A stretch of DNA of 24,012 nucleotides from positions 1 to 24,012 of IMG/VR virus record IMGVR_UViG_3300032516_000199. One strand, given 5' to 3'. This DNA is from a virus. The position numbers were made by a program, and so were the translations under genes. The notes under the pieces are model-generated. The model saw only the letters and a program-made list of their open reading frames with translations. It was not told the origin of the DNA and ran no database searches. Shown here piece after piece: positions 1,873 through 23,688 of this stretch (positions are counted from its first letter, which is position 1; each line of letters begins with the position of its first letter).

Positions 1873-3240
1873 CTATCCGTAGCGGTAGATTTGCGGGACG
1901 AAGCCCAATTCCCACACGTCGATCGACCACGGCGTCGCTCCAGTTCCCTCCGGGTCAAAGGACGCATAGCCGATAAAAGAATGAGCTCCGTCGTACCATT
2001 TGACACGGTTGTTGTTCGAGTCGACGATGAAGATGTCGCCAGCCTGGTTCAGAACAACGCCGGATGCGGAATCGTATTTCGTTGAGTCGCCACCAGGCCC
2101 CACGTTCCCGAACGCCAGATCCTCGTAGACGAGCGTGTCGGACGAGTCGAACACGCTGTATCCGGAAACGTTCGTGACGTACAGGTTGTCGTCCGGGTCG
2201 AAGAACAGTTCGCCGTCGGGTGACGTTGACGTGCCCACCCAGGCTGCGCTCGTGAACTGCGACACGTATGTGCCTGCCGTGTCGAACTTCTGGATACGTC
2301 GCGGGGTTCCACTGTCTACGACGTAGACTTCGTCCTGGGAGTTGATCGCTATTCCGAACGGCGACCTTCCTGAGAACTGGCCGTTGCCGGTGCCGACCGA
2401 CCCGAACGTCGACACATACGCGCCGGACGAATCGAACTTGCGTATATAGCCGCCCTGCGGCGAGTTCTGAATGTCACAGACGTACAGGTTCCCGGCTGAG
2501 TCCTCCGCGAGCTGCCCGACCGAATACGACGTGTCGAAGTTGCCGCCCAACGCAATCCGTTTCCCGAACTTGAAATTGAGCGAAAGGTCGGAGCGGTTGA
2601 GCACGATCACGTGCTCATCCCAATATGGTGAGAGGCTCGTCGTGCGTGCCGTCTGCGTCAGGAACACATTCGTCTTGTCACGCGAAAGACGGACGGATCG
2701 GATGGAGTACATTGATGGGTTGGCCCAGAATCCGAGGTCGCCCAGCGTGTCGTCGCTCAGCCACACCATGTTGAGGCTCGACAGCAGCGTCGTGAAGTAC
2801 GTCGTGATCGAATTGCTGTAGTAGTCGATCCACCAGTCGAGGTTGAACGTGCCGGCGTCGGCGTTCGTGAATCCGGTCACTTCGAGGTAGTAGTCGCCGG
2901 CGGCAGGAACCCAGACGACCAGCCGCGAATACGCCGGCCCGTGGATTACGTCGTCTTCGTTGACGCCAAGCTCGACCAGGGTCGCAAGCGTCGACCCCTC
3001 GTAAATGCCGATCACAGTGTCGCCAGCCGGTGTGCCCGACGACGGCGCAGACGTCATCGCAGTGATGTTGCCGGGGCCGCTAACGGTGATCTTGTACCAC
3101 ACCGACGGTGTTCCATAGACGTTCGCGAGCGGATCGTTCGCACCGTCCGAGGTTGCCGAAGCGTTCGTCTCATCAACGAGCGATCCGTTGTCCGCGAGGG
3201 CGGTGGCGTTCGCGAACGCATCATTGGCAGGAGCAGGCAT
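1873..3240 (-). CDS. tail tip protein with NHL-type beta-propeller (likely receptor binding)
   Basis: This 455-aa protein begins with a beta-sandwich domain (PANDAFANATAL; YKITVSGPGNITAMTS; RLVVWVPAAGDYYLEVTG), a form of pre-peptidase-like carbohydrate- or protein-binding domain, to about residue 140. A spacer (about 140-230) follows. From about 250 to 440 it has NHL/six-bladed-propeller-like repeats: LAEDSAGNLYVCDI, IRKFDSSGAYVSTFG, FGIAINSQDEVYVVD, RIQKFDTAGTYVSQF, FFDPDDNLYVTN and GVVLNQAGDIFIVDSNNNRV. These repeats bind ligands on their open face. Its place last in the tail block, before the endolysin, fits a receptor-binding protein. The receptor is unknown. Confidence 0.83.
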   Translation of the reverse strand: MPAPANDAFANATALADNGSLVDETNASATSDGANDPLANVYGTPSVWYKITVSGPGNITAMTSAPSSGTPAGDTVIGIYEGSTLATLVELGVNEDDVIHGPAYSRLVVWVPAAGDYYLEVTGFTNADAGTFNLDWWIDYYSNSITTYFTTLLSSLNMVWLSDDTLGDLGFWANPSMYSIRSVRLSRDKTNVFLTQTARTTSLSPYWDEHVIVLNRSDLSLNFKFGKRIALGGNFDTSYSVGQLAEDSAGNLYVCDIQNSPQGGYIRKFDSSGAYVSTFGSVGTGNGQFSGRSPFGIAINSQDEVYVVDSGTPRRIQKFDTAGTYVSQFTSAAWVGTSTSPDGELFFDPDDNLYVTNVSGYSVFDSSDTLVYEDLAFGNVGPGGDSTKYDSASGVVLNQAGDIFIVDSNNNRVKWYDGAHSFIGYASFDPEGTGATPWSIDVWELGFVPQIYRYG

Positions 3241-9568: not shown

Positions 9569-10170
9569 GCGGCCAGCACCCCGGAGCCGCGCACCAAGTT
9601 GTCAAGCAGCCACGAAACATCAGGGTCGATTCTCGAGATCCGAACTGGTGCGTTGTCGATCCCTAAGCCGACGACGCCGAACGGCGCCTCCCGTGCCCGG
9701 CGCAGCAGCCGGGTCGCCATGATCGTCGTCGCTTCCTTCACCTGCGGCGGGGTTGTCAGCCAGCCGAACTGGCCGGTCACGAGCACCGACCGCGGTGCCG
9801 TCGAGAAACGCAGGCTCGAATAGGGGTTCGGCTCGAGCCGCTCATACGGTTTCCCGTCCGCCGTCGCATTGTACGGCCACAACAGATAATCGGTGTTGGA
9901 CGCCCACACCGTCTCGAAGGTGGCGTTCCCGTCCGTGTCGGTCGCGACAGTCGCCGCCGAGATCAGGTCGTCGATAAGCACGTAGCCGAGCTCCGTCGCC
10001 GAGTAGTAGCGTGACACGGCTGTGCCGGACGAATAGAACGTGCGGTCGCAATACTCTTCGATCCCTGCTTCGGCAGCGTTGATCGCCTGCTGCGCGTCGT
10101 AATCCGCGAACGAAAACCCGATCAGCTCGGACGTGTTCTTCAGTTCGGTCAGCTGCACGTAGTTGCTCAT
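9565..10170 (-). CDS. head-tail connector (HK97 gp6-like adaptor)
   Basis: The start is the ATG at 10170 overlapping the previous stop (ATGA), giving 201 aa. The longer upstream frame is a shadow. The protein has the gp6/adaptor layout: an N-terminal helical part (DYDAQQAINAAEAGIEEYCD) ending in a Cys-Asp-Arg-Thr segment, a beta insertion (YYSATELGYVLIDDLIS), the typical VLVTGQFGW strand, and a C-terminal helix (PQVKEATTIMATRLLRRARE). Such proteins dock on the portal and form the next ring of the neck. It begins the connector and tail block after the accessory segment. Confidence 0.86.
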   Translation of the reverse strand: MSNYVQLTELKNTSELIGFSFADYDAQQAINAAEAGIEEYCDRTFYSSGTAVSRYYSATELGYVLIDDLISAATVATDTDGNATFETVWASNTDYLLWPYNATADGKPYERLEPNPYSSLRFSTAPRSVLVTGQFGWLTTPPQVKEATTIMATRLLRRAREAPFGVVGLGIDNAPVRISRIDPDVSWLLDNLVRGSGVLAA

Positions 10171-10523
10171 CCGATCGCCGCCGTCACCTGGACGAGGAAC
10201 GGGTCGGCGTTCGGGAACGTTTGCACGGTTCCGGACGCGAACCGCACCTGCCATTCGCCGCAATACAACCCTGGCACGGCGGTGTCGTTCGCACCCCAGT
10301 TGTAATGGATTTGTCCCATCGCCCCCGTGCCTCCCGTTCCGTTACCGACCTGATCGATAATCGCGGTTCCGGCGACCGTCAATGTTCCGCCGGAAATAGG
10401 GGCGATCCGCAAGATAACGGTTGCGTTCTCGACCGACACAGCGGTGCCACCGGAGTTTTCTACCGTCGCTTCCAGACGCGACGCTCCGTCGCCCTGCTTT
10501 ATCAGGAAATCCGGGTCAGGCAT
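10167..10523 (-). CDS. BppU-N-like beta-sandwich protein (118 aa)
   Basis: The ATG at 10523 shares a base with the stop of the repeat protein (TAATG). The sequence follows a well-known phage pattern: an opening DFLIKQGDGASRLEATVEN, a strand VENATVILRIAPI, a middle GAMGQIHYNWGANDT, the signature AVPGLYCGEWQVRF, and an end GTVQTFPNADPFLVQV. This matches the small beta domain found at the N-terminus of BppU-type baseplate proteins and as a free-standing protein in many phages. The free-standing form has no fixed function. It could link the repeat protein to the virion. Its stop overlaps the connector start (ATGA). Confidence 0.78.
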   Translation of the reverse strand: MPDPDFLIKQGDGASRLEATVENSGGTAVSVENATVILRIAPISGGTLTVAGTAIIDQVGNGTGGTGAMGQIHYNWGANDTAVPGLYCGEWQVRFASGTVQTFPNADPFLVQVTAAIG

Positions 10524-13500
10524 TAGCCCACCGGCGCTTTCGTTCTGCTGCCATTCATTCTCACGATTGTAGGTTCGCCATCGGTCAATATCAGTGTTCG
10601 CGTTCGCCCGTTCGCCCCCGGCGCGAGCGTCCGATAGGTGAACGACGGTCCAGCGCCCGCGCCAGCGTTGCCGGCGTTGCAGCTGGCGGTCGCGAGCGCC
10701 CTGACGCCCACGACATACGAGGTAAACGAGAGGTAGCCGACCTTGCCTGCCGCTGTCGCGGTGGCGCGGCTGCCGCTGATCGCGAGCCAGGGTGCGCCCG
10801 CCGCCGCAGCCGCAGCCGCTGTCGCCCGAACGCCGCTAAGCCTGATCCGTGGCGCTCCTGCTGTCGCGGTCGCGGTCGCCAGGGCGCGGCTGCCTGCCAG
10901 CGAGCTCGACAGGTTAACGGTGCCGCCGTTCGCTGCTGCTGTGGCGGTCGCGCGGACGCCCGTGATCGAGATGCGCGGCGTGCCGACGGTGGCGGCAGCC
11001 GTGGCGGTCGCCCTGATTCCCGCTGCGAGACGCAGCCTCGGGCTGCCCGCGCCTGCCGCCGCGGTCGCCAGGGCGCGCACGCCCGTGATGCTGACAGGGC
11101 CGACGACGCTGACCGTGCCGGCGTTCCCGGTTGCGCTCGCTGCTGCACGTCTCCCGGGGATCAAGATCGTTGGGCTGCCCGCCCGTGCGGCCGCAGCGGC
11201 AGGGGCGCGAACACCGAGATACGAGAGTTTGGGGGCTCCCGCGGTCGCTGCAGCTGTCGCCGCGGCGCGTGCTCCGCTGAGCCGGCAGTCGTAGGCGAGA
11301 GCGCCGTTCTTTGCCGCTGCCGTCGCGACCGCACGGACGCCCGAGACGTAAACGGAGCCGCCGACGATCAGCGAACCTGCGTTACCGACAGCCGTCGCGA
11401 GCGCCCTTACGCCCGTGACGGCGACCTTGACCGTTCCTTGCGTCCCTGCGGCCGTGGCTGCCGCTCTTACGCCCGTCGGCGCGACCTTCGGGGTTCCGGG
11501 GTTCCCTGCCGCCGATGCTGTAGCGCGTGCTCCTGCGACCGATAGGTGGACGGTGTTGAGGAGCGTTCCGGCGTTTCCTGTCGAGGTCGCCGTGGCCCTG
11601 GTGCCGGTGACGGCGATCCTGATGGTGCCGGGTTTCGCCGCCGCGGTCGCTGCCGCCCTGGCGCCGGTGACGGTGGAGGTGAACGCGACCGTGCCGGCTG
11701 TCGCTGCGGCTGTGGCGAGCGCCCTAGCGCCGGTAAGCGCCAGTTTCGGGCTACCTTTATTTCCGGCGGCGGTCGCTGTCGCCCTGACGCCGGTGATGAG
11801 CATGTTGGCGCCGGACGAAACGCTGCCCGCGTTCCCAGATGCTGTTGCTGCCGCTCGAGCTCCGGTGACCGAGAGTTTGACGGTGCCGGGTTTCGCTGCG
11901 GCTGTGGCGCTCGCTCGCGCACCCGACACCGTCTGCCGCGTCGAGCCCGCCGTAGCAGCTGCGGCAGCCGTGGCACGGACACCAGTGACCGAGATGCGGG
12001 CAGTCCCGGGTTTTCCTGCGGCCGTGGCCGCAGCCCGGACGCCCGTGATCGTGACGGCGGCGCTGACGGTGCCGGATTTTCCTGCTGCCGTTGCGGCAGC
12101 ACGAACACCGGTGGCGGAAACCCTGACGGTGCCGGCGTTCGCCGCGGCAGTTGCGGCTGCGCGGACGCCGGTGACGCTGATCCCGAAATTGACCTGGCCT
12201 GCGTTCGCCGCCACCGTGGCCGCAGCGCGGACGCCTCCGATCTTGATCGTCGGGGTGCCCGGCTTCCCTGCCGCGGTCGCCGTTGCCCGGACTCCCGTGA
12301 TCGTGATGCTGGCGCCGCTCGAGATGCTGCCCGGGTTGGCCGTCGCTGTGGCTGCAGCGCGAACACCGGTGGCGGCGACCTTGGGCGTGCCCGGCGTGCC
12401 TGCCGCAGTCGCGGCAGCGCGGACGCCGGTGACGGTCGACGTGAACGCAACCGAGCCCGGCTTCGCCGCCGCGGTCGCCGCAGCACGGACGCCCGTGGCG
12501 GCAACCTTCGGGGTGCCCGGCTTCGCTGCCGCAGTCGCGGCAGCGCGGACGCCGGTGACGGTCGACGTGAACACAACGGTGCCCGGCTTGCCTGCGGCCG
12601 TTGCGGCGGCTCGAACACCCGTGATTCTGATGTTCTGCTCGGCGGTGACGGTGCCCGGCTTGCCTGCGGCAGCGGCGGTCGCGCGAACACCGGTGGCGGC
12701 AACCTTCGGCGAGCCCGGCTTCGCTGCCGCCGTCGCAGTGGCGCGAACACCCGTGAGCCGGTAGTCGTACTTGACGGTGCCGATCTTGCCTGCCGCCGTT
12801 GCGGTCGCTCGAACGCCGGTGATGCTGATGTTCGTGATGCCGGACGAAACAGGTTTAAGTGCGAACCCGACAACCCCCCAGCTGTCGGCGAGCGCCATCC
12901 CGTATGTGTTGGGGCCGCCGACCGTGACAGCCGCGTAGTTCGGCTTGTAGTTCATGTCAGATGTGCTGGTGGCGGGAGTCCAGGTGCCGCTCGATCTGGA
13001 CTTTGGGATCCCTGGCACGGTGGCCGGGTCAGCTCCGTTCAGGTAGTAGTAGTTGACCGCGTCACGCGCACCCGACCGCCGCGTCACAATCCAGTAGGAG
13101 GTTCCGACTACGAGGGTCGCGCTGACCGCGAACGTTTCGTCCCTGAAGGTTCCCCACGCCGTCATCGCCGACCATGCCAGCGTGGGAGACGAACCTACCG
13201 GGGTGCCCGACGGGCTTCCCGCCGAATCCGTCTGGATCTCCACAACCAGGTTGTCACCAGGGTCGGATCCGCCTACCGCGGCACAAGAAAGAACGACGGA
13301 CTGGAGGTTCGTACCGGCCGCCGTGAACGGGATCCCCCACATTTCCTGAATACCGGTGGCACCCTGCACCCCAAAGAGGGCGGTGGTGCCCGTCAGATAG
13401 CTTTCCTCGGGCGTCGCGGTCTGCAGCTGTATCGTGGCGTCGGTTCCCGTTGCCGTCGAATACTCCGCGACCGCTTCGGCCCACGGGCCTCCGTACCCGC

Positions 13501-14026
13501 CGGTGAAAGCGGCGACCGCATTGTCGTTGTTGACCATCACGAGGTTGATCGCCAACCTCTCAATGTCCGTCGTCACGACAGTCGCAGCCGTGATCGTGCC
13601 GCCAAACCCCTTCGACACCGTGAACGTGCCCGCCGTCGTGTTTTCGAGGATTTGCGCTATCGACGTGCCGGCGTTGACGGCCGAGAACTCATAGCTTCGG
13701 ACATACAGGTCGTCGCCCGACGCGTTACTTCCTGTCGCGGTGTGCGTCGACCCGGTGCTTGTCGTGCGTCCAACCCACAGCTTCTGGAAGGCCGCGGAAG
13801 CCGTGCCGACGCTGAACTCGCCAATCAGATCCCAAACGTTTGCCGTACCAGCAAGGTTCTTGATCCCCGATGCGCTGTCGATAACAGCGCCACCCGTCGG
13901 CCCGTCCTCCCCCACCTGCAAGATGACGAGGTTCCCCGCCGTCGCAGCAGCCGGGCCCGCATACGTCCAGCCGCCCGTCGCGTCGGTGATGCCCGTTCCC
14001 GCGTTGACGTAAGACGGTCTTGCCAT
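10523..14026 (-). CDS. giant Ala/Thr-rich tandem-repeat virion protein (fibre-like)
   Basis: This 1167-aa protein has three parts. Residues 1-225 resemble a beta-rich phage structural domain (GNLVILQVGEDG, IERLAINLVMVNND). Residues about 226-392 look like a jelly-roll binding or anchor domain (MWGIPFTAAGTNLQSVVLS, NLVVEIQTDSAGSP, VVGTSYWIVTRR). Residues 403-1105 are 33 full tandem repeats, with a 34th partial unit to about 1119, on the pattern TGVRAxATAAxKPGT plus a 5-, 7- or 9-residue variable strand. A short tail (about 1120-1167) ends the protein. No signal peptide or membrane span is seen. Short TGV/GT beta repeats occur in other phage tail proteins, but this array is unusually long. The most likely role is a surface shaft or adhesin. 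It overlaps the 118-aa gene by one base (TAATG). Confidence 0.85.
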   Translation of the reverse strand: MARPSYVNAGTGITDATGGWTYAGPAAATAGNLVILQVGEDGPTGGAVIDSASGIKNLAGTANVWDLIGEFSVGTASAAFQKLWVGRTTSTGSTHTATGSNASGDDLYVRSYEFSAVNAGTSIAQILENTTAGTFTVSKGFGGTITAATVVTTDIERLAINLVMVNNDNAVAAFTGGYGGPWAEAVAEYSTATGTDATIQLQTATPEESYLTGTTALFGVQGATGIQEMWGIPFTAAGTNLQSVVLSCAAVGGSDPGDNLVVEIQTDSAGSPSGTPVGSSPTLAWSAMTAWGTFRDETFAVSATLVVGTSYWIVTRRSGARDAVNYYYLNGADPATVPGIPKSRSSGTWTPATSTSDMNYKPNYAAVTVGGPNTYGMALADSWGVVGFALKPVSSGITNISITGVRATATAAGKIGTVKYDYRLTGVRATATAAAKPGSPKVAATGVRATAAAAGKPGTVTAEQNIRITGVRAAATAAGKPGTVVFTSTVTGVRAAATAAAKPGTPKVAATGVRAAATAAAKPGSVAFTSTVTGVRAAATAAGTPGTPKVAATGVRAAATATANPGSISSGASITITGVRATATAAGKPGTPTIKIGGVRAAATVAANAGQVNFGISVTGVRAAATAAANAGTVRVSATGVRAAATAAGKSGTVSAAVTITGVRAAATAAGKPGTARISVTGVRATAAAAATAGSTRQTVSGARASATAAAKPGTVKLSVTGARAAATASGNAGSVSSGANMLITGVRATATAAGNKGSPKLALTGARALATAAATAGTVAFTSTVTGARAAATAAAKPGTIRIAVTGTRATATSTGNAGTLLNTVHLSVAGARATASAAGNPGTPKVAPTGVRAAATAAGTQGTVKVAVTGVRALATAVGNAGSLIVGGSVYVSGVRAVATAAAKNGALAYDCRLSGARAAATAAATAGAPKLSYLGVRAPAAAAARAGSPTILIPGRRAAASATGNAGTVSVVGPVSITGVRALATAAAGAGSPRLRLAAGIRATATAAATVGTPRISITGVRATATAAANGGTVNLSSSLAGSRALATATATAGAPRIRLSGVRATAAAAAAAGAPWLAISGSRATATAAGKVGYLSFTSYVVGVRALATASCNAGNAGAGAGPSFTYRTLAPGANGRTRTLILTDGEPTIVRMNGSRTKAPVG
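10670..12820 (-). repeat. in-frame tandem repeat array, about 34 units of 60-72 bp
   Basis: By hand parsing of the translation there are 33 full units: 17 of 20 aa, 9 of 22, 6 of 24 and one of 21, then a partial 14-aa unit. The conserved core of each is (T/S)G(V/A)RA-x-A-x-AAxKPG(T/S). The part after the core is a variable beta-like strand ending in a hydrophobic residue. At the DNA level units are diverged except near 12400-12660, where neighbouring two-unit blocks are nearly identical, showing recent copying. Confidence 0.92.
12400..12572. repeat. 47-bp perfect direct repeat, 126 bp apart, within the array
   Basis: Bases 12400-12446 and 12526-12572 are identical over 47 bases. The offset is 126 bp, exactly one 22-residue plus one 20-residue unit. 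This points to expansion by duplication of a two-unit block rather than single units. Confidence 0.85.
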
Positions 14027-14143
14027 CTACTTGTTCACCGCCGAAACGGTTCGGTCGATCGACACGGCGTCAGCCGCCAGAAACGGGTGTCAGCGTTCCC
14101 TCGTGATGATGCTGTGCCATGTGCCGGACGCTCCCGGCCCCGC

Positions 14144-14587
14144 TTACGCGACCGTGATCGCGCCCGCCGTCGTAGCCGGGACGACATACGTGAACGTGCC
14201 CGACGACACCGTTTGGGTTCCGCCGAACTCGACGTACATCAGCGCCTCCCACGACGTCGTCGTCCCTCCGGCCCGCCGGTTGTAAACGACCATGCTTGAC
14301 GCGCTGAAGCTCGCCGACGTCCACGTTGGGTCGTCGAAGTCCCAGCGGATCTCGTTCGTCGCAGCGTCATACGAGATAGTCGAGTTCGACACGGTCGCGC
14401 CCAACGTTGTGTAGCCGGTGCCTGTGATCTCTTTCGACATCACGCTCGTCACATAGCGGTGGTTGTCCTGGTCGACCGTGTATCCGGTCAACAGAACGGC
14501 GCCCAAAGGGCCGACGTTCAGGTTCACTGTGCCGCCGGCAAGCGCGTCCTTCAAGCCAAGCGGGTAAAAGACTGCTGTTACGGCCAT
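14144..14587 (-). CDS. phage structural protein, beta-sandwich type (147 aa)
   Basis: The ATG at 14587 has a GGAGG eight bases upstream that overlaps the end of the previous gene. The protein has the ordered features of a family common in phage virion regions: an opening about the encoded object (TAVFYPLGLKDALAGG), a turn TGYTVDQDNHRYVTSV, then SKEITGTGYTTLGATVS, a strand IRWDFDDPTWTSASF, and a final barrel segment GGTQTVSSGTFTYVVP. Related proteins are seen near tail-fibre and decoration genes; exact location is not established. It directly precedes the large repeat protein and may form its base or partner. Confidence 0.75.
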   Translation of the reverse strand: MAVTAVFYPLGLKDALAGGTVNLNVGPLGAVLLTGYTVDQDNHRYVTSVMSKEITGTGYTTLGATVSNSTISYDAATNEIRWDFDDPTWTSASFSASSMVVYNRRAGGTTTSWEALMYVEFGGTQTVSSGTFTYVVPATTAGAITVA

Positions 14588-14591
14588 TTCC

Positions 14592-15593
14592 CTATCCTCC
14601 GATTCCGGTTGCTCGTGCGGTCACACCGTCAATGATGACTGATGCGGTGGATGACAGCACCCGATTTTCCACGAGTTGCTCTAGCAGCCGAATCGCTTCG
14701 AGGGTGCCGTCGTCGCCGACGAAACGGTCTCGCCATTCGGCGGCACCGTCGTCGCCGTCGCAGGCGGCGACTATCAGCTCGTCGAGCTCGCCGTACTCGA
14801 CGTCGAGTGGGTAGCGCAGCAGATCAGCGTATAAGTCGGTGTTGTTGGGCCAACAGTAGGAGCCGTTCACGTAATCAGCCAGGTTCGTTTGGCCGAGCAT
14901 CACCGTAGGTTTGCCTGACGCTATTGCAGCTGCAGCGACCGATCCGGCGCCGACGACGACGTCGGCCTGCTGGACGAGCGCGAACGACTGCTGGAACTCC
15001 ATGTTCGGATTGTCGACGAACGCCACACCGGGATGCGCCCAAACGCCGTTCTTCCACAGCGGCCCGACGGACGTGACGGTGAGTTCGTAGCCGAGTTTGA
15101 GCAGATCCTTGTAAACGGCCTGGTTCAGCTTCGGGCCTGAATCGTGGCCGTTCGTGCCCGCGTGAACCATCTCCATGTTCGGATGCTGCGGTGCGAACAG
15201 CAGCCTGACGGGATTCTCGACCGGCTCGAACGGTCGCGCGGGTGAGAACAGCCAGCCGGTTTCCTTTTGCTTCAGCTCGAGGCCAAGCAACTGGGCAATC
15301 TCGATTGGCCCTCGTCCGTGCTCGAGCCGTAGGTCGACGTTCTCGTCGGGCGGGGTGAGGCCGTCGTAAACGAAGACGGTGGGTGCGCCGCCGTGCGGGT
15401 AGACCGCCACCTTCGCGCCCGCCTGCTTCGCGAGCCGGATCAGCTCCGGTCGAGGGTGCGCCCACGCCCAGTCGCAGTCGACGATCAGGACGTCGGTTCT
15501 GTCAACGGTTTCGGCGACCGTGTGTCCCTGTTCGACCAGCCGCTGCTGCAGATAGCTTCCTTTGCCGCAGTTTTGCCAGATCGCGAACCTCAT
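14592..15593 (-). CDS. GT-B-like glycosyltransferase or related sugar-phosphate transferase
   Basis: The start is the ATG at 15593 overlapping the GT2-like stop (ATGA), giving 333 aa. The longer open frame upstream is only a shadow of the GT2-like gene. The N-terminal domain begins MRFAIWQNCGKGSYLQQ and has strands such as VLIVDCDW and KVAVYPHGG. The C-terminal domain ends with a GT-B-type donor-binding pattern, DVVVGAGSVAAAAIASGKPTVMLG (residues 211-234, in two parts), with a small-residue turn followed by a Gly-Lys-Pro strand. The match is to the fold rather than a named family. Overlaps with two clear glycosyltransferases support a role in the same pathway. No catalytic base could be assigned. 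Confidence 0.62.
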   Translation of the reverse strand: MRFAIWQNCGKGSYLQQRLVEQGHTVAETVDRTDVLIVDCDWAWAHPRPELIRLAKQAGAKVAVYPHGGAPTVFVYDGLTPPDENVDLRLEHGRGPIEIAQLLGLELKQKETGWLFSPARPFEPVENPVRLLFAPQHPNMEMVHAGTNGHDSGPKLNQAVYKDLLKLGYELTVTSVGPLWKNGVWAHPGVAFVDNPNMEFQQSFALVQQADVVVGAGSVAAAAIASGKPTVMLGQTNLADYVNGSYCWPNNTDLYADLLRYPLDVEYGELDELIVAACDGDDGAAEWRDRFVGDDGTLEAIRLLEQLVENRVLSSTASVIIDGVTARATGIGG

Positions 15594-16213
15594 TTGAGCG
15601 TTTCCCGCACCTGGTCGCCGAACAGAACTCTGTTCGCCGCCAGCGCCAACTCGAATCGCACCTGATCCTGTCCGCCGGTGCGGCCGCCGAAGTGCCGCAA
15701 TCCCGGTCGCAGTTCGCGCAGCAGCATCCCTTGCATGCGCGCCTGGAACGACAGCGCGTTGTCGGAATAGTAGGCGGGGCCGGCGACGTCGTAGGTTTCG
15801 TCCCAGCCGCCAATTCGTCTTAGATCCTCCGTCATCGCCGCCAAACACCAGCCGTCGGCATACGGGTAGTCGACGTCGTCGACGGCGCCGTGCGGGTCGA
15901 AACGCAGCGGCGCCAGGATCACGCCCGGTTCGACGCGGTCGCGGATCTCCTGCAGCCATGTGGGTCGCAGCATCGCAACGTCGTTGTTGAGCATCACGAC
16001 GGCGTCGGTTTCGACAAGCGCGAGAGCGACGTTGTTGGTCGTGCAGAACCCCGACGGCTCCTCCATTCGGGCGGCCGCGAACTCGAGCGGCGGGTCGGAC
16101 GCGTCATCGACGATGACGAGCTGATCCGGTTTTCCCGTTTCGACGGCGGCGAAATAGTCGGGTGCGAGCTCAAGATGGTCGCGCCAAGCGGTACAGACAG
16201 CGATCGTCGTCAT
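15590..16213 (-). CDS. glycosyltransferase, GT-A fold, GT2-like
   Basis: This 207-aa protein shows GT2-family features. The first strand leads to LVIVDDASDPP (D36-D37, nucleotide binding). The metal-binding DXD-like segment is VVMLNNDVAML (N76-D78). The acceptor-side acidic motif is around GGWDETY (136-141), followed by AYYSDNALSFQARMQG and a late His (H174, LRHFGG). It is short but complete for the catalytic domain, with no membrane segment, so a soluble cytoplasmic enzyme is expected. It starts in an ATGA overlap with the GT4-like gene and ends in an ATGA overlap with the next gene, so the three are translationally coupled. Sugar donor and acceptor cannot be read from sequence. Confidence 0.87.
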   Translation of the reverse strand: MTTIAVCTAWRDHLELAPDYFAAVETGKPDQLVIVDDASDPPLEFAAARMEEPSGFCTTNNVALALVETDAVVMLNNDVAMLRPTWLQEIRDRVEPGVILAPLRFDPHGAVDDVDYPYADGWCLAAMTEDLRRIGGWDETYDVAGPAYYSDNALSFQARMQGMLLRELRPGLRHFGGRTGGQDQVRFELALAANRVLFGDQVRETLK

Positions 16214-17391
16214 GCTGCGATCCTGAGCGCCGGCACCTCACGCGGTCGCAGGACCAGATCGAGGGTCGGCAACCAATGCTCGACCATCACCCTGTCAACG
16301 TCATAGGCTGCGGCGAACGCGACGGCCTGCTCGGAAAGCCCTTCGGCGTCGTTGTAGGCGTTATCCATCGCCTCCGCGATGTCAGCCACATAGGGAACCT
16401 TCTGGTAGGCGCCCTGCATCTGATCCCACCATTTGTCGCCCTGCACGAGCCAGCCGGCGCCGCACAACTCCGTCATCGCCGTCCACTCCGTCGTTATCAC
16501 CGGCACGCCGCACGCCTGCGCCTCAATCAGAGGGATCCCGAACCCTTCCCCCATTGACGGCATCGCCAGCACGTCGAAACAGTTGATGATCTCGGCGATC
16601 ACGGGCTGCGGGATCCCCAACGCGAGCGCCAGCTGATCGGACGTTCGCATCGAGTCGGGGTCGATTCCGCACGACGACGCAAGCTGGATCAGGTTGACGC
16701 CGCCGTTTCGGCCATGCACGTCGGCGTGCACGTACATGACCGCGTCAGTGTGTTTCTTCCGAAGCTGTGCGAACGCCTCGAACACCTGCGGGAAACACTT
16801 ACGGGACGGCAGCCCCTGGTTGTTCGCGACCATGCCGACGACGAACGCGTCCGTCGGCACCTTCAGAGCGGTCCGCAAAGCGTCCCGCTCGTCGCGGCGA
16901 GGACGAAACGCCTTCGTGTCGACGGCGTGAGGAACGTACAGCGCCTCGAAGTCCGCCTGCTGCAACGCACCCAACCCGTGTTGAGACATTGCGATCGTCT
17001 GTGCGCCCGACTCGCGAAGAAACTGGCCGACCATCGGCGGCAGCGGATCGTGGTCGACTGGCGTCCAGCAGGCAAACCGGATGCCCTGCAGGTTCGGGAG
17101 CCCCTGCACGAGCGGCCACAGATCCTGCAGCGTCATCACGAGCGGTGCTGTGCGGTCGCCGCCCGCATGATGCCCTGCATATTCGCCCAGCAGCATGGCG
17201 CCGAAACGGGTGATGTCGGTCGGATAACACTTGATTCCGTTCCACTCGAGGCAGCCGCCCTCCAAACCGTAGAAACACGAGATCGCCATGTTGTGCCCCG
17301 CTTCCGCGAATCGCGGAACGAACATCGCCGTCTGATTCCCATATCCGCTGGTTGACCAGGGAGCGTTCGAAGACCAAACTATGTCAGCCAT
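16210..17391 (-). CDS. glycosyltransferase, GT-B fold, GT4-like
   Basis: I choose the ATG at 17391 (393 aa). It opens directly into the conserved N-terminal strand and loop (MADIVWSSNAPWSTSGYGNQ) and has an AAAGG upstream. An alternative ATG at 17421 adds ten residues and lacks a ribosome binding site. The C-terminal domain carries the nucleotide-sugar-binding signature of retaining GT4 enzymes: GMVANNQGLPSRK, then MPSMGEGFGIPLIEAQACG, containing the EX7E pair (E282 and E290). The acceptor is unknown. Similar enzymes occur in actinobacterial phage structural regions. Its stop overlaps the next start (ATGA), and it is the first of three coupled sugar-transfer genes. Likely targets are virion proteins, host cell-wall glycans or phage DNA; the first is favoured by context. 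Confidence 0.88.
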   Translation of the reverse strand: MADIVWSSNAPWSTSGYGNQTAMFVPRFAEAGHNMAISCFYGLEGGCLEWNGIKCYPTDITRFGAMLLGEYAGHHAGGDRTAPLVMTLQDLWPLVQGLPNLQGIRFACWTPVDHDPLPPMVGQFLRESGAQTIAMSQHGLGALQQADFEALYVPHAVDTKAFRPRRDERDALRTALKVPTDAFVVGMVANNQGLPSRKCFPQVFEAFAQLRKKHTDAVMYVHADVHGRNGGVNLIQLASSCGIDPDSMRTSDQLALALGIPQPVIAEIINCFDVLAMPSMGEGFGIPLIEAQACGVPVITTEWTAMTELCGAGWLVQGDKWWDQMQGAYQKVPYVADIAEAMDNAYNDAEGLSEQAVAFAAAYDVDRVMVEHWLPTLDLVLRPREVPALRIAA

Positions 17392-17438
17392 CAGGTCGTG
17401 CCTTTCGTCGCGGGGTGACATTCAACGTGCAATCAGGC

Positions 17439-18194: not shown

Positions 18195-19658
18195 CTACTG
18201 GATCGTCCCGACCCGGAATGCGTTCCGGTCGATGACGCCGGCCGAGTTGCGCCAGAACGCGACGAGCCCGGACTGGCCCCGCGGGTACGTGATGCCGCCC
18301 GTGGTGTTGCCGTTGAACAGATCCGGGATGATCCGGATCGACATTCCGATCCGATCGACGATCGCGAACTTGTTGAAGTCGCCGAACACACCCCACTTCA
18401 CGGTCGTCGCGAGACCCGGGCCGGCGGTGCCGACGCTCGACGCCTTGTAGGCGGGGTAGCCAAGCAACTGCGGCGGGTTCCCGTCGGCCAACTGCACCCA
18501 CAGGTTCGCGCCTCCCGCGGTGTCCAGCTGCCGCACCTTCGCGAACATTCCCGGGGTCGCGACCCAGGAGGCGTTCGGGATGTGCCGTGCCGGCAGATCC
18601 GACTCGAGGTTGTACAGGTCGACGACCGAGAACGCCGTCGCCGCTGACGACTGGTAGGTGACTGGGCCCGATGCCACGTCGCCATACAGGACGCCTCGCG
18701 GCTCGTTCGACGCGTGCCCGGTGCCGACGCTGAACTTGAGCGACTCCACCGTGTCCTTCGCATCCTGAATCTCGGCTGCGAGTGTTGACTCGAGCGAACC
18801 CCAGTCCTGCCCGATCTCGTATGAGAACGGAACGAACGCGTCGACGCGCTCGGGGATGATCGACGGGGCCGCCAGCGTCGGCGAGTTGTCCGTCATTATC
18901 GCGGCCTCAGCCCGGTAGTTCGCCGTGATGCCGCCCGACGTGACTCCCGACCACTGGTACGACGTCGTCGTGAACACGCGACTGATCTGCCGCAGCGGGT
19001 TCAGAGCTCCGTTCGACGTCGGGATGATCGTCGGGTCGAGGTCGACCGGAACGGCCGCCTGACCTGTTGCCGCCGCACCGACCGCCAACGCCCGCTGCTC
19101 CTCGTTCGTCATCGGCTGCGACGTGATGTGCTTCCAGAACGCCCGATGGTAGATTTCGGAGCCGGTCGTCAGGATCCGCTGAGCGATCTCCCTGTCGGGG
19201 CTGTCCTGCCCCAGGATCCGTTCGACGTGCGAGTTGATCTTGTCCTTGTCCGCCTGCGGGTGCGGATAGTCGAACGTCTCGAGCGCCCTCTTTGCGCCGT
19301 CGCCGAGCATCCGAAGCATCTGCGACTGGTCACGCGCGAGACCGTGGTAGGCGGTGACGTCGAACACGTTCTCCGGCGTCTTGTCCTTGCCGGCCCGGCG
19401 TGTCACATACACGTCTGCCGTCTGCGATCCCGCCTCCCGGGTGCCGCCGCCCGCCACCATCTTCTCGAGCCGCAGCTGCCGGTTCTCCTCGGCCAAACAG
19501 CGCTTGTCGAGGTCGTCCCACTCGGCCTCGAACTGATCCCATGCTGCCTGATCCTGGGCGGAAAGGACGGCGCCGCGGTTCTCGTTCGCGATCTCCTCGA
19601 GCTGCGCCTTGATCTCGTCCTGCCGCGCCCGCATCTCACCGATGCTGGTCGTGTCCAT
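18195..19658 (-). CDS. probable capsid-only product from internal start within the fusion gene
   Basis: An ATG at 19658 in the frame of the fusion gene (residue M320) is preceded by GGAGG with a 5-base spacer. It falls exactly where the acidic linker ends and the delta-domain coiled coil begins (MDTTSIGEMRARQDEIK). Initiation here would give a 487-aa scaffold-plus-capsid protein without the protease. That would let the phage make many capsid subunits per protease from one frame. The site is seen in the sequence; its use is inferred. Without it, protease and capsid would be made one to one and would need self-cleavage at the linker. Confidence 0.55.
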   Translation of the reverse strand: MDTTSIGEMRARQDEIKAQLEEIANENRGAVLSAQDQAAWDQFEAEWDDLDKRCLAEENRQLRLEKMVAGGGTREAGSQTADVYVTRRAGKDKTPENVFDVTAYHGLARDQSQMLRMLGDGAKRALETFDYPHPQADKDKINSHVERILGQDSPDREIAQRILTTGSEIYHRAFWKHITSQPMTNEEQRALAVGAAATGQAAVPVDLDPTIIPTSNGALNPLRQISRVFTTTSYQWSGVTSGGITANYRAEAAIMTDNSPTLAAPSIIPERVDAFVPFSYEIGQDWGSLESTLAAEIQDAKDTVESLKFSVGTGHASNEPRGVLYGDVASGPVTYQSSAATAFSVVDLYNLESDLPARHIPNASWVATPGMFAKVRQLDTAGGANLWVQLADGNPPQLLGYPAYKASSVGTAGPGLATTVKWGVFGDFNKFAIVDRIGMSIRIIPDLFNGNTTGGITYPRGQSGLVAFWRNSAGVIDRNAFRVGTIQ

Positions 19659-20615
19659 CGTGTCCTCCGTTTTCGTGTCGTCGTTGTTGGCGCGACGCTC
19701 ATGCGGCTGGGTGTCCCGGCGCTCCAAGATGGCAGGGTGGGGCGGCGCAGCGGCCGTCGTCGTTTCTTCTTCGTCTTCGGGTCCGTCGGCTTCTCTCGCG
19801 TGCTCATCCGAGCCCGTTGCGGTCGAAGCCTCCACGGTTGCCGGTTCCGCCACAGCGGCGGGAACCAAACCGGCCAACGTCTCCAATACCTGTTCCATCA
19901 CCGACACGTTCGCCTGGTTGGCTGGCGCGTCCTGCTCGTCGATGTAGTCGGCGCCGATCTGGATCATTTCCGCGAGCTTCGCGAGATCCTCGGTGTCCAT
20001 CCGCTCGATCTTGTCGCGGTCGAGGCTGCCGACGAACTGGGCGATCCGATACTGGTCGGTCAGCGACCTGACACCCGCCGTCGCGGACGAATAGGCCGGG
20101 AACGTGACGGGGCCGAACTCCGCGACCGACGCCTCCGTGATCGTCCGCTCGGGCAGCCCGTCGGGGTTCCAGTCGGACTTGCCGGGTTGGCGCTCAATGT
20201 CCTCGCGCACAACCTTGAAACGAAATGACGCACCGTACTCGCCGGCACGCAGCCCGGGCAGCAGATCGCGGTTGTAAGAGGTGTCGTGCATCTCGACGTC
20301 GTAGGCGGCACCACGCCCGTCCTCAACGACCGACGTGACCGACCCGAGCACCTTGTTGCCGATCTGCGGGTCTGACCCGTGGTTGAACAGCACCTTCGGC
20401 GTCTGCTCACGGAACGTTTTAGCGAACGCACCCGGGGCGATCCGCTCCATGAAATGACCTTCGAATATCGACTTGATTTCCGTGAACTCGTTGAAGACAG
20501 CGAAATGACCTGTTAGCGTCGGCATTTCACTGTCTGCCGTGGCACGCAACTCGAGATCGGCAGGGAAGACCGCGCGAACGAGATCGTCCTTCGGAAACGG
20601 CTTTATGTCCGCCAC
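18195..20615 (-). CDS. prohead protease / major capsid protein fusion (HK97 fold)
   Basis: One 806-aa frame contains two normally separate proteins. Residues 1-190 are an S78/U35-type prohead protease, with candidate catalytic residues H79 (LFNHGSD), S130 (GEYGASFRF) and E161 (TEASVAEFGPV), and the family ending FPAYSSATAGVRSL. Residues about 250-320 are a low-complexity acidic Ala/Thr/Pro linker. Residues about 320-390 form a coiled-coil scaffold-like delta domain (RARQDEIKAQLEEIANENRG). Residues about 415-806 are an HK97-like capsid protein, with NPLRQISRVFTT, AFVPFSYEIGQDW and a C-terminal ITYPRGQSGLVAFWRNSAG. The start is GTG, preceded by GAGGAGG seven bases upstream. Fused protease-capsid genes are known. 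This one also has an internal ribosome binding site and ATG at the junction, listed separately. Confidence 0.93.
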   Translation of the reverse strand: MADIKPFPKDDLVRAVFPADLELRATADSEMPTLTGHFAVFNEFTEIKSIFEGHFMERIAPGAFAKTFREQTPKVLFNHGSDPQIGNKVLGSVTSVVEDGRGAAYDVEMHDTSYNRDLLPGLRAGEYGASFRFKVVREDIERQPGKSDWNPDGLPERTITEASVAEFGPVTFPAYSSATAGVRSLTDQYRIAQFVGSLDRDKIERMDTEDLAKLAEMIQIGADYIDEQDAPANQANVSVMEQVLETLAGLVPAAVAEPATVEASTATGSDEHAREADGPEDEEETTTAAAPPHPAILERRDTQPHERRANNDDTKTEDTMDTTSIGEMRARQDEIKAQLEEIANENRGAVLSAQDQAAWDQFEAEWDDLDKRCLAEENRQLRLEKMVAGGGTREAGSQTADVYVTRRAGKDKTPENVFDVTAYHGLARDQSQMLRMLGDGAKRALETFDYPHPQADKDKINSHVERILGQDSPDREIAQRILTTGSEIYHRAFWKHITSQPMTNEEQRALAVGAAATGQAAVPVDLDPTIIPTSNGALNPLRQISRVFTTTSYQWSGVTSGGITANYRAEAAIMTDNSPTLAAPSIIPERVDAFVPFSYEIGQDWGSLESTLAAEIQDAKDTVESLKFSVGTGHASNEPRGVLYGDVASGPVTYQSSAATAFSVVDLYNLESDLPARHIPNASWVATPGMFAKVRQLDTAGGANLWVQLADGNPPQLLGYPAYKASSVGTAGPGLATTVKWGVFGDFNKFAIVDRIGMSIRIIPDLFNGNTTGGITYPRGQSGLVAFWRNSAGVIDRNAFRVGTIQ
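19659..19674 (-). promoter_or_regulatory. internal Shine-Dalgarno site inside protease-capsid fusion
   Basis: Read on the minus strand, the bases just before the ATG at 19658 are ACGGAGGACACG. The GGAGG core is five bases from the start, as good as the site used for the whole gene. In a coding region such a site next to an in-frame ATG at a domain boundary is unlikely to be meaningless. Confidence 0.55.
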
Positions 20616-20630
20616 GTTATTCCCTCCTCA

Positions 20631-22040
20631 TTATGCTTCTAATTGTGCAGGAACCATCGGACTACTACCGTTCAACGATCCTGTCGGGAGCGCGTTATTG
20701 GGAGCGCTCGGTTCCGTTCCCGGAGGCTGCAATTGCACCGACAGCATTCCCGTGTGAACGAGAGCGGTGACGTCGTTCGCCGCGACTGCCTGCACCGCTG
20801 ACTCTGGCGTGAATCCGCTGTTGACGTAGGCGACGACGGTTTGCGACTGGATCTGCTGAATGTCTGCGAGATCACGAACGTCTTCTTTCAGGAAAGCGAT
20901 CTCGCGGTCGTCGTACCAGAGCTCGGAGCCGGAAGGCACCTGGATGATCGACGCGAGAGACCCGGCCGCGTTTCGCCACAGCGGCCGCAACAAACCGTCA
21001 GCGAAGTTCCTCCGGGCGGACGCATAGTTGCCAGCGTTCAACGTCGAGCCTTGCAGCCCTTCGCTGATCCCCAACAGGGTCGCCGGCACTCTTGCGGCAG
21101 CAGCGATCCTGACTTCGCCAGCGCCCTGCACGACCTTGAAATCTATTTGTTGCAAATCGCTTCCGACGGGTGTTGCGTCCGCCCCCATTCCCAGGAACAT
21201 CGTCCGGTAGGCCTTCGCGACGCCCTCGTGGCCGTCGCGAATCACCTTCACCCACTCCTGGAACTGATCCATCGTCGGCGCCGCTTCCTTCGGCAGCTTC
21301 ACGACGAGGTTGACGGTGGCGCCGTTCTCGAAGAACTTGAGCCGGTGCGCGGTCATTGCCTGGTCTGCCTGGATCTCGCGGATCAGGGGTGTCAGCCACG
21401 ACATGCCCCGGTAGATCGCCTGCGGGTCGGGGATCGGCGCGAAGTGCGCCACCGTCGAAGCCGGGAACACCATTTCCGGTTCGGTGCCGCGTAACCCGCC
21501 GGGCTTGTAGATGTAGCCGACGACTTCGGTGTCGGGGTCGCCGGCAACCCATGTTTCCCGGTCGGATGTCGAGCCGAGCAGAATGCTGACCCAGTCGGGA
21601 CGCAGCCGTGCTAGCCGGTCGCCCTGACGGACGATGAACGCGTTACCCGCCAGATCAACGTCCTGGATCATCCGGGCGAGCAGATCGCCTGTGGTGCCGT
21701 TTGGCCACGGTGTCTCGAGCGGAGCCAACGCCGCGGTGCCGAACAGGCTTCCGGGCCGTCCGTTCCTCAACTGGCGAAACTGGAACCTTGCTTCCGTGAA
21801 ATGCAACATTCGCGCGTACATGCAGGCGAACACAACCCCGTTCGCCGCGTAGGCGCCGCTGACGAGCCCCGTGTAGTCGCCGTACAGTTCCTCCCGGTCT
21901 CCCGTCAACGTCTGCTGCAAACCGACGGGATACAGATTTCCCTGATAGTTGACCATGTCGACCCACTGCTGGAAACCGAGCGGCATCACCGACGTCCGCT
22001 CGGAGGCCCGTCCTGTCAGCCGGCGCGCCAGGCTCGTCAC
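20631..22040 (-). CDS. portal protein (HK97/SPP1-like)
   Basis: This 469-aa protein sits between terminase and protease/capsid, the standard portal position. It has typical features of the HK97-type Phage_portal family: a conserved early segment (AYAANGVVFACMYARM, about residues 63-78), a middle region with a Trp-rich GMSWLTPLIREI stretch, then VNLVVKLPKEA and GISEGLQGSTLNAGNYASAR near the stem and clip. The portal forms the dodecameric ring through which DNA enters and leaves. The C-terminal 50 residues are Pro/Ser/Asn-rich and probably disordered. It starts in an ATGA overlap with the small membrane gene. A 15-base gap containing a ribosome binding site separates its stop from the next start. 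Confidence 0.93.
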   Translation of the reverse strand: MTSLARRLTGRASERTSVMPLGFQQWVDMVNYQGNLYPVGLQQTLTGDREELYGDYTGLVSGAYAANGVVFACMYARMLHFTEARFQFRQLRNGRPGSLFGTAALAPLETPWPNGTTGDLLARMIQDVDLAGNAFIVRQGDRLARLRPDWVSILLGSTSDRETWVAGDPDTEVVGYIYKPGGLRGTEPEMVFPASTVAHFAPIPDPQAIYRGMSWLTPLIREIQADQAMTAHRLKFFENGATVNLVVKLPKEAAPTMDQFQEWVKVIRDGHEGVAKAYRTMFLGMGADATPVGSDLQQIDFKVVQGAGEVRIAAAARVPATLLGISEGLQGSTLNAGNYASARRNFADGLLRPLWRNAAGSLASIIQVPSGSELWYDDREIAFLKEDVRDLADIQQIQSQTVVAYVNSGFTPESAVQAVAANDVTALVHTGMLSVQLQPPGTEPSAPNNALPTGSLNGSSPMVPAQLEA

Positions 22041-22186
22041 TCGGTCACGTCAATCAGGAGCGCGCCCGCCGCGAGCACGGCGCAACCGGCCACAATGACC
22101 GCTGCAGGAATCGACCACATAGCGATGCCACCTATTATGAGCAGCGCACCGGATACGCAGGCGGCGACCGCGAACCAAATCCTCAT
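22037..22186 (-). CDS. small two-span membrane protein between terminase and portal
   Basis: A 49-aa protein starts at an ATG at 22186 that overlaps the terminase stop (ATGA). Its own stop overlaps the portal ATG in the same way. An upstream in-frame ATG at 22237 would force a long overlap inside terL and add a basic, non-hydrophobic extension, so I prefer 22186. The protein is almost entirely hydrophobic: one span at about residues 3-22, a short turn (MWSIPA), a second span at about 25-43, then an acidic tail (LLIDVTE). I do not recognise a family. The locked overlaps on both sides indicate a real gene translated with the packaging genes. Confidence 0.78.
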   Translation of the reverse strand: MRIWFAVAACVSGALLIIGGIAMWSIPAAVIVAGCAVLAAGALLIDVTE

Positions 22187-23688
22187 GAGAACGCGACCAG
22201 CGGTCCGGCGTAAGCGGAAGTGTTTGCCGCATGCCACATTGCCCTGTCGAAAGCGATGATCGAAGCGACGGCACCGTCGATCTTCCGGGGAGAATCCTTG
22301 AAGTCCTTAGTCACGAGAACACCATAGGCCGACGGAACCGAAACGCAGTTGCCGAAATGCGCTGCCAACACCTGCGCCAACGAACCACCATACGTAAATG
22401 TGCCGTCCTGCATTCCCGCTTCGGTACGTTCGCAAGCGGGCGCCATCTTCGACGGCTGACGGGTCTCGAACATCACTACGCATTCGCCGTACTTGTCGGC
22501 CCACTCGTCGATTTCGGAATACCAGCCTGGCGGATCGGCCGCAAGCTCGAGCACGTCGAACCGTCGCATCGCCTCGTCAACAGCAGCATGAACCTGCTGC
22601 CGCGGGATCCGCCATTCGTCATTCGCTCCGGCCGGACGGAACCAGCGTTGCAACGGCTCCACGAACCCATCGTCGACGCGACACGCGACCAGCCACGTTT
22701 CGTCGCGCTTCTCCGACCCGTCGAACCCCAACACGACCCGGTCGCCGTCATCGACCCGTTCGCCCGCCCGAAACGCGCCGCCAATCACCTGCGGCGCAAC
22801 GAACGTCGTTTCCGTTGCCGCCCACACACATCCGTGCAACTGCAGAATCGTGGCCGGCGCCAACCCATCGACATTCGACTGTGCCTTCAGATACTCGTCC
22901 GTGATCCACGACGCAGGGTTCGCCATCTGCATCGCCGGAATGTCCAACGGATCCATCGTCGGAGCCGAATAGTTGAACAGCAGCGTTCGCCCCTCATGGT
23001 TGCGCGACACCGTCAACCCCGGATGAGGCTGGTCGACGTCACCGCGGCCTTCGGTGCCGTCGATGATCCGCCCCAGAATCGACGAATGCCTAGCCGAAGC
23101 GTCCCCGGCCGTCGTGATCGTGAACACCTGGGAGCGTTTCCGTGCGCCGCCCGCCGTGTTCAACGAATCCCACACCCGCCGGCGGGTCGGAGTCGTCCAA
23201 GCATGAAGCTCATCGCAAATCGCGAGCGACGGATTGGCGCCGTCCAGGGTGTCGCCAGTAGACGACAACCTGATGATCTTGCCGCCCGACTCGATATGCA
23301 CGATCTCGCCGATGTACTCGCGCCGCTGCACCAACTCGTCGAGCTCCGGATTGCGCCGCAAATAATTGATGCAGGCGTCGAACAGCTTCCCCGCCTGCTT
23401 GTCGGTGCCGGCCGCCAACAGAATCTCGGGGCGACCCACATCGTTAAACAGCCGGAACAACGCGAGCGCCGCAAGCATCGCCGTCTTCCCGTTCTTCCTA
23501 CTCACGACCAAAGCGAGCGTCTTCCAATACGGCTCGAGCGTCTCCTCATCAGTGACGGTCAACGCCGCGTCGAAGAAGTCACGCTGCCACTGCTCCAACT
23601 TCAACGGCTTCCCGGCGAACTGGTCCTCCGACTGGATCAAATGCTGCTCACACCAGTCCGCGAAAATGTCGCCTTCCGTCCACAGCAT
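22183..23688 (-). CDS. terL: terminase large subunit (packaging ATPase and nuclease)
   Basis: This 501-aa protein has the motor and nuclease motifs of a large terminase. A Walker-A-like VSRKNGKT is at residues 62-69, a Walker B with catalytic acid (LAICDE) at 155-160, and a coupling motif ITTAGD at 191-196. The RNase H-like nuclease half begins near VVLGFDGSEKRDE (D323), with further acidic positions at D385 (LAADP) and around D471/D481. The protein pumps DNA into the prohead and cuts concatemers. Length and motif order match the HK97-type Terminase_1 group. The start directly follows the small-subunit stop, and the stop overlaps the next ATG as ATGA. All key motifs are intact. Confidence 0.96.
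   Translation of the reverse strand: MLWTEGDIFADWCEQHLIQSEDQFAGKPLKLEQWQRDFFDAALTVTDEETLEPYWKTLALVVSRKNGKTAMLAALALFRLFNDVGRPEILLAAGTDKQAGKLFDACINYLRRNPELDELVQRREYIGEIVHIESGGKIIRLSSTGDTLDGANPSLAICDELHAWTTPTRRRVWDSLNTAGGARKRSQVFTITTAGDASARHSSILGRIIDGTEGRGDVDQPHPGLTVSRNHEGRTLLFNYSAPTMDPLDIPAMQMANPASWITDEYLKAQSNVDGLAPATILQLHGCVWAATETTFVAPQVIGGAFRAGERVDDGDRVVLGFDGSEKRDETWLVACRVDDGFVEPLQRWFRPAGANDEWRIPRQQVHAAVDEAMRRFDVLELAADPPGWYSEIDEWADKYGECVVMFETRQPSKMAPACERTEAGMQDGTFTYGGSLAQVLAAHFGNCVSVPSAYGVLVTKDFKDSPRKIDGAVASIIAFDRAMWHAANTSAYAGPLVAFS

Follow-up and report, generated by a model that had tools for sequence, protein, structure and literature searches.

The repeat of an adenovirus-type triple beta-spiral consists of a strand, a Gly/Pro turn, a second strand and a variable loop, and is roughly 15 amino acids (aa) long. 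Parallel beta-helix and solenoid proteins, such as the autotransporter passenger Vag8, SRRP, pectate lyases and phage tailspikes, have coils of roughly 20–25 residues. Closest to the array described here are repeats that about a dozen sequenced Gordonia phages carry in their “minor tail proteins”. We found no published description of these repeats in the literature searched, whose coverage leaves out most subscription papers. Here we analyze a virus record from IMG/VR (IMGVR_UViG_3300032516_000199, positions 1 to 24,012), which was taken whole and is called the window. It encodes a 1167-aa protein with 34 tandem repeat units. Of the arrays examined here, this one is the longest of its repeat kind, which sequenced Gordonia phages already carry. 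Homologous to the Gordonia arrays and about three times longer, it probably forms a rigid shaft of beta structure in a virion surface protein of the minor tail or fibre type.

The repeat protein occupies positions 10523..14026 on the minus strand, like every window feature given below. Its open reading frame (ORF) starts with an ATG at 14026 and ends with a TAA at 10525–10523 that overlaps the ATG of the next gene. A preliminary description of this DNA had reported a 1167-aa protein with about 34 repeats here without stating a strand, and we confirm the protein. Long plus-strand ORFs across the array region (e.g., 11546–14299) were disregarded as probable mirror frames of a gene rich in G+C. 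The protein comprises an N-terminal part of 403 residues (12818..14026), the array of 33 full units and a 34th core (10667..12817), and a short C-terminal tail of about 47 aa after the last core (10523..10666).

Each unit is a 14-residue core, G-V-R-A-x-A-T-A-A-x-x-x-G-T, followed by a variable segment of 6, 8 or 10 residues. When the 34 units are anchored on the invariant G-x-R-A, the first begins at residue 404, and 17 spacings measure 20 aa, nine 22 aa, six 24 aa and one 21 aa. These counts exactly match those previously obtained by hand and, because the anchoring returns the same spacings, the unit lengths are not a parsing choice. The sole odd unit, of 21 aa, corresponds to residues 982–1002 (11021..11083). 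Spacings are therefore even in 32 of 33 cases (binomial P = 4e-9 assuming independent units, which duplicated units are not). The length variation always falls beyond the 14-residue core, and the best gap relative to 20-mers opens mostly at unit position 14–15.

Five core residues never vary among the 33 full units: Gly1, Arg3, Ala4, Ala6 and Gly13. Within the variable segment, hydrophobic residues occupy 82 of 117 odd positions, but only 11 of 117 even positions, and this alternation holds within the 20-, 22- and 24-mers taken separately. Extra residues therefore appear to arrive as inward–outward pairs. Moreover, the array is old and selection at the protein level acts on its core, because unit cores are about 69% identical in protein and about 66% in DNA at all separations, and synonymous codons vary freely at the invariant Gly, Arg and Ala sites.

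The even lengths could instead be a by-product of array growth, arising by slippage in 6-bp steps or from a few duplicated founder units, without any constraint from structure. The units did arise by duplication, and Tandem Repeats Finder detects a 126-bp (42-aa) period in part of the array. Long units also tend to alternate with 20-mers: units above 20 aa form three adjacent pairs where 7.3 are expected (p = 0.004), which suggests a packing rule or growth by pairs of 42–44 aa. However, 30 of the 33 variable segments differ in sequence, and the three length classes are distinct types (P-K/R-V, V-x-F and V-S-S-G for the 20-, 22- and 24-mers, respectively), not doubled hexamers. Growth without constraint also fits poorly with divergent Gordonia phages that keep the same parity, and with an array of a different type, in phage Hibiscus, that has adjacent 20- and 21-aa units. 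We consider this explanation very improbable.

Direct searches of Pfam, PHROGs, NCBIfam, PDB sequences and, using tblastn, phages revealed no relatives of the protein, the array or the N-terminal part, and pattern scans of IMG/VR and GTDB found no relatives of the repeat protein. Specifically, nothing in Pfam, NCBIfam, PHROGs, PDB sequences or phages matches the N-terminal 403 residues significantly, and we found no relatives of the C-terminal tail. The route to relatives was the neighboring gene (14144..14587), which encodes a 147-aa protein matching PHROG 644 (phrog_644, 1.2e-17). In Gordonia phages, the next large gene after the homologue of this gene encodes a repeat protein of the same architecture. 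The core G-x-x-A-x-x-x-x-x-x-x-x-G-x-V, by which we recognize the family, occurs in tandem in the window array.

A 17-column hidden Markov model of the window units missed the Gordonia units. We also built a position-specific matrix from 66 Gordonia unit cores, using no window sequence. Of the 33 anchors that this matrix placed in the window protein, 32 are true unit starts (32 of the 34 units), while shuffled arrays gave 3.4 anchors on average and at most 7. In the reverse test, most Gordonia units rank top within their proteins, although those of Sixama and Forza are less clear. Pairwise hhalign comparisons placed the window array in register with Gordonia arrays (probability 92.6, E 4.4e-7; probability 85, E 6e-6), but repeats inflate such values. 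In a Foldseek search of viral structures with the window model, the GodonK minor tail protein came first (E 0.04).

The preliminary description knew of no array this long with an even-length rule. The rule is not unique to the window: the Gordonia minor tail proteins follow it, with units of 20, 22, 24 and 26 aa. Using leave-one-out matrices, we obtained 52 spacings of 24 aa, 17 of 22, three of 20, two of 26, one of 28 and two of 48 (two units). The only odd spacings were one of 25 and one of 73. Thus, spacings are nearly all even in nine Gordonia proteins, with a 25-aa unit as the clear exception; relatedness means that these phages are not independent samples, but their groups are well diverged (Moosehead/Vasanti, Phendrix/GodonK, Guey18/Keelan/Fryberger, Forza/Sixama and the window). 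Keelan and Fryberger have one orthologous unit whose length differs between them by exactly two residues. Hydrophobic residues in the Gordonia units favor odd positions (74 of 135, versus 29 of 135 even positions), the same trend as in the window. The Gordonia arrays share the parity, whereas the Hibiscus gp30 array mixes units of 20 and 21 aa, so that the even rule belongs to this kind of repeat and not to phage repeats generally.

The Gordonia arrays resemble the window array to different extents. Moosehead gp28, Pickett gp27 and Vasanti gp28 (PHROG 7114 / 553), as well as Phendrix gp92 and GodonK gp95/96, have the same core spacing (G1, A4, A6/A8, G13, V15), the same variable segment, 24- and 22-aa units and a PHROG-644-like gene upstream. 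However, these arrays have about 11–12 units, as opposed to 34, consist mostly of 24-mers rather than 20-mers and lack the Arg at core position 3, and their genes are located near tail and lysis genes. Guey18 gp64, Keelan gp57, Fryberger gp59, Forza gp107 and Sixama gp105 also exhibit the core, even lengths (20/22/24/26) and a partner gene directly upstream. In these proteins about 8–11 units were found, and the cores are more divergent (Pro-rich at positions 2–3, Leu/Ile at 6). The arrays of Hibiscus gp30 and Whitney gp34 are joined to the same type of C-terminal domain as the array relatives, but have a different core.

The C-terminal domain to which this array type is joined varies among Gordonia phages: at least two kinds occur, and they differ even between members of one genus (Fryberger versus Keelan). 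Such exchangeable domains are as expected of a spacer or shaft. The PHROG 7114 type occurs in Moosehead and, by eye, in Fryberger (our group L028, L036 and L038), and the PHROG 9930 type in Sixama and, by eye, in Keelan, Forza and L044 (our group L037, L039 and L044). In GodonK the array is in two overlapping frames (gp95/gp96; L035:1900-3433), while in Phendrix it is one ORF (gp92; L034:2312-4381), and Guey18 gp64/gp65 looks split likewise relative to Keelan gp57. Candidate explanations for the GodonK split are a sequencing error, decay or a programmed frameshift.

It had been proposed that the array forms a continuous beta structure rather than a linker, and that structure prediction of several units could check this. 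The AlphaFold2 (AF2) model of eight units as a monomer, using a four-row self-alignment, is all beta (predicted local distance difference test, pLDDT, 72.8; predicted template modeling score, pTM, 0.74). A 26-row overlapping self-alignment was useless, as MAFFT aligned identical stretches. A run on residues 1–577 with no alignment gave two strands per unit in the array, with a pLDDT of about 63–89 past the first unit, and failed on the N-terminal 400 residues (pLDDT mostly <50). In nearly all units, the modeled strands comprise positions 3–10 and the last 7–8 residues. Both strands have 7–8 residues, and the loop that joins them has mostly 2, 4 or 6 residues. Nonetheless, the alternation in the sequence runs through the whole variable stretch. 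The earlier idea that a variable strand changes by even steps therefore holds for the pairwise alternation, but in the model it is the loop, and not the strand, that varies.

AF2 arranges one unit per coil of a beta-solenoid, and the top matches in the PDB are, for both models, mostly beta-helices or solenoids, with Z of 8–13 (up to 10 and 13). These matches include Vag8, SRRP, pectate lyases and phage tailspikes, to which the window array has no sequence relation. In addition, the window models have two strands per coil, and are predicted, while the structures of those proteins were solved experimentally. Matches to Dot/Icm, SufB/SufD and antifreeze proteins were taken to reflect a common solenoid shape, not kinship. 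An alpha-helical reading, based on weak matches to helical-looking PDB entries, was rejected in view of the beta strands in both AF2 runs and the period-two alternation. Overall, parity, alternation in three length classes, persistence in Gordonia phages and the two AF2 runs all favor a continuous beta structure. Its support comes mainly from the parity, the alternation and the conservation of both, and we present the solenoid itself as a hypothesis.

In such a solenoid, the core would form one strand (A), with Ala 4, 6 and 8 facing inward. The variable segment would form the other (B), with Val, Ile, Leu or Phe at odd positions pointing inward and packing against the Ala residues of strand A. 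The strands would be joined at Gly1 and via a turn around Gly13. Only the gain or loss of a residue pair would preserve the inward face of the strand, and the 20/22/24 rule would exist because the inward–outward alternation tolerates only paired insertions or losses. The array would act as a stiff spacer and, by simple arithmetic, would be a rod of about 16 nm if each of the 34 units is one 4.8-angstrom coil.

The strongest rival is a trimeric fibre shaft, in which three chains are wound together as in the triple beta-spirals of the adenovirus type. Each unit would be strand-turn-strand plus a variable solvent loop, and the even rule would keep the register between chains. The separate N-terminal part ahead of the array suits a fibre, and the high Ala content suits tight packing between chains. 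Also, the succession of strand, Gly/Pro turn, strand and variable loop is like that of triple beta-spiral repeats. However, the window units, at 20–24 aa, exceed the roughly 15-aa unit of those repeats, and the monomer AF2 models show a single-chain solenoid. We regard a trimeric shaft as unlikely.

Several observations weigh against a solenoid-like shaft of the Gordonia kind. AF2 turns even random repeats, as well as mucin 22, into confident beta-solenoids (PMC11795689). Because AF2 invents solenoids for repeats, its fold is weak evidence here and does not decide between a monomeric solenoid and a trimeric shaft. A Foldseek search with the array-only model gave no match reaching E 0.001. The composition of the array (30% Ala, few large hydrophobics, and 71 Lys/Arg versus 3 Asp/Glu) is atypical of a stable solenoid. 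In the Gordonia records, “minor tail protein” is an annotation, for which we found no proteomics, and the window gene lies in the stretch from the capsid to the head-tail connector genes and not with the tail-tip genes. Finally, the domain order is reversed: in Gordonia phages the array is followed by a C-terminal domain, while in the window a 403-residue N-terminal part precedes the array. No C-terminal globular domain of the PHROG 7114/553 or 9930 type follows the window array, as the protein ends about 47 aa past the last core, and the N-terminal part has no similarity to those Gordonia domains. Because of this difference in domain order, we claim homology only for the array, and not for the full architecture. 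From the gene order in the head/tail block and the annotations of the relatives, we infer that the protein is present in the virion, where it would serve as a shaft and might sit at the tail tip, the neck or the head.

Glycosyltransferase genes separate the capsid gene of the window from its array gene (14592–17421). The first (16210..17421) is of the group 1 / GT4 type (Pfam PF00534, 3.2e-12; PHROG 2170, 4e-33), and the next (15590..16213) is a probable second glycosyltransferase (PHROG 1579, 5.6e-6). A 333-aa protein (14592..15593) had no match in the profile libraries searched and, judging from position and appearance only, is perhaps a third sugar-transfer enzyme. The enzymes may glycosylate the capsid or the shaft. 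Accordingly, another explanation is that the array, rich in Thr, Ser, Ala and Pro, is their substrate, and is an unstructured, mucin-like, sugar-coated spacer that extends the particle surface without a fixed fold. Consistent with this idea are the two clear and one possible glycosyltransferase genes, the 15% Thr and 6.5% Ser of the array, the above-mentioned tendency of AF2 to fold mucins wrongly as solenoids (PMC11795689) and the glycosylation of mycobacteriophage capsids by phage enzymes (PMC11256854). However, disorder explains neither the even-only lengths nor the hydrophobics at odd positions. In addition, the capsid protein is an equally good substrate for glycosylation, and no annotated glycosyltransferase is beside the array in the Gordonia regions read. 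A mucin-like spacer is therefore improbable in our judgment, and we continue to prefer a beta-structured shaft.

Homologues of the 147-aa protein, which have about 145 aa, occur in 66 phage records. As in the window, each of the 11 array-bearing relatives read has a PHROG-644-like gene immediately upstream of its array gene (Guey18, Sixama, Forza, Keelan, Fryberger, Vasanti, Pickett, Moosehead, L044, Phendrix and GodonK; E 1e-12 or better). In Hibiscus, Whitney and Stultus, none of the tested upstream genes was of this type. Because such genes also adjoin other fibre-like proteins (Orchid, CRP-603), PHROG 644 is a partner of fibre-like genes, and not of this array alone. Phages of Gordonia, Mycobacterium, Caulobacter and Roseobacter have its homologues next to fibre-like genes. 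Our guess is that the protein serves in anchoring or assembly.

The window has a G+C content of 64%, and all its recognized genes are on the minus strand, in head-and-tail order. They begin with the large terminase (22183–23688), the portal (20631–22040) and a protease and HK97-type capsid fusion (18195–20615), which is a single 806-aa ORF with Peptidase_S78 at residues 21–182 and Phage_capsid at 519–804. A gene for a 118-aa protein (10167..10523), whose start overlaps the stop of the array gene, is followed by head-tail adaptor, tail terminator, major tail protein, tape measure and tail-end genes. The tail gene block closes with a 455-aa protein with NHL repeats, of the beta-propeller type (1873–3240), which is a candidate receptor-binding protein. 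Among sequenced phages, phiC31-like Streptomyces phages have the nearest large terminases, at about 30% identity, and the host is probably actinobacterial. Relatives reached via the terminase or capsid protein are without such an array.

We tentatively propose that these arrays represent an undescribed class of shaft. It would be characterized by a fixed 14-residue core with length quanta of two residues, a dedicated PHROG 644 partner of about 145 aa, free lengthening (from about nine to at least 34 units) and swappable terminal domains. The parity rule, valid in several phage groups, amounts to a prediction of three-dimensional structure that needs no more than the sequence. It provides a simple handle for finding and testing beta-structured phage shafts that are missed by profile libraries, as Pfam and PHROGs are blank on the window array. 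Meanwhile, the small, conserved upstream gene, with its 66 phage records, points to an unnoticed partner of the array proteins, perhaps for anchoring or assembly.

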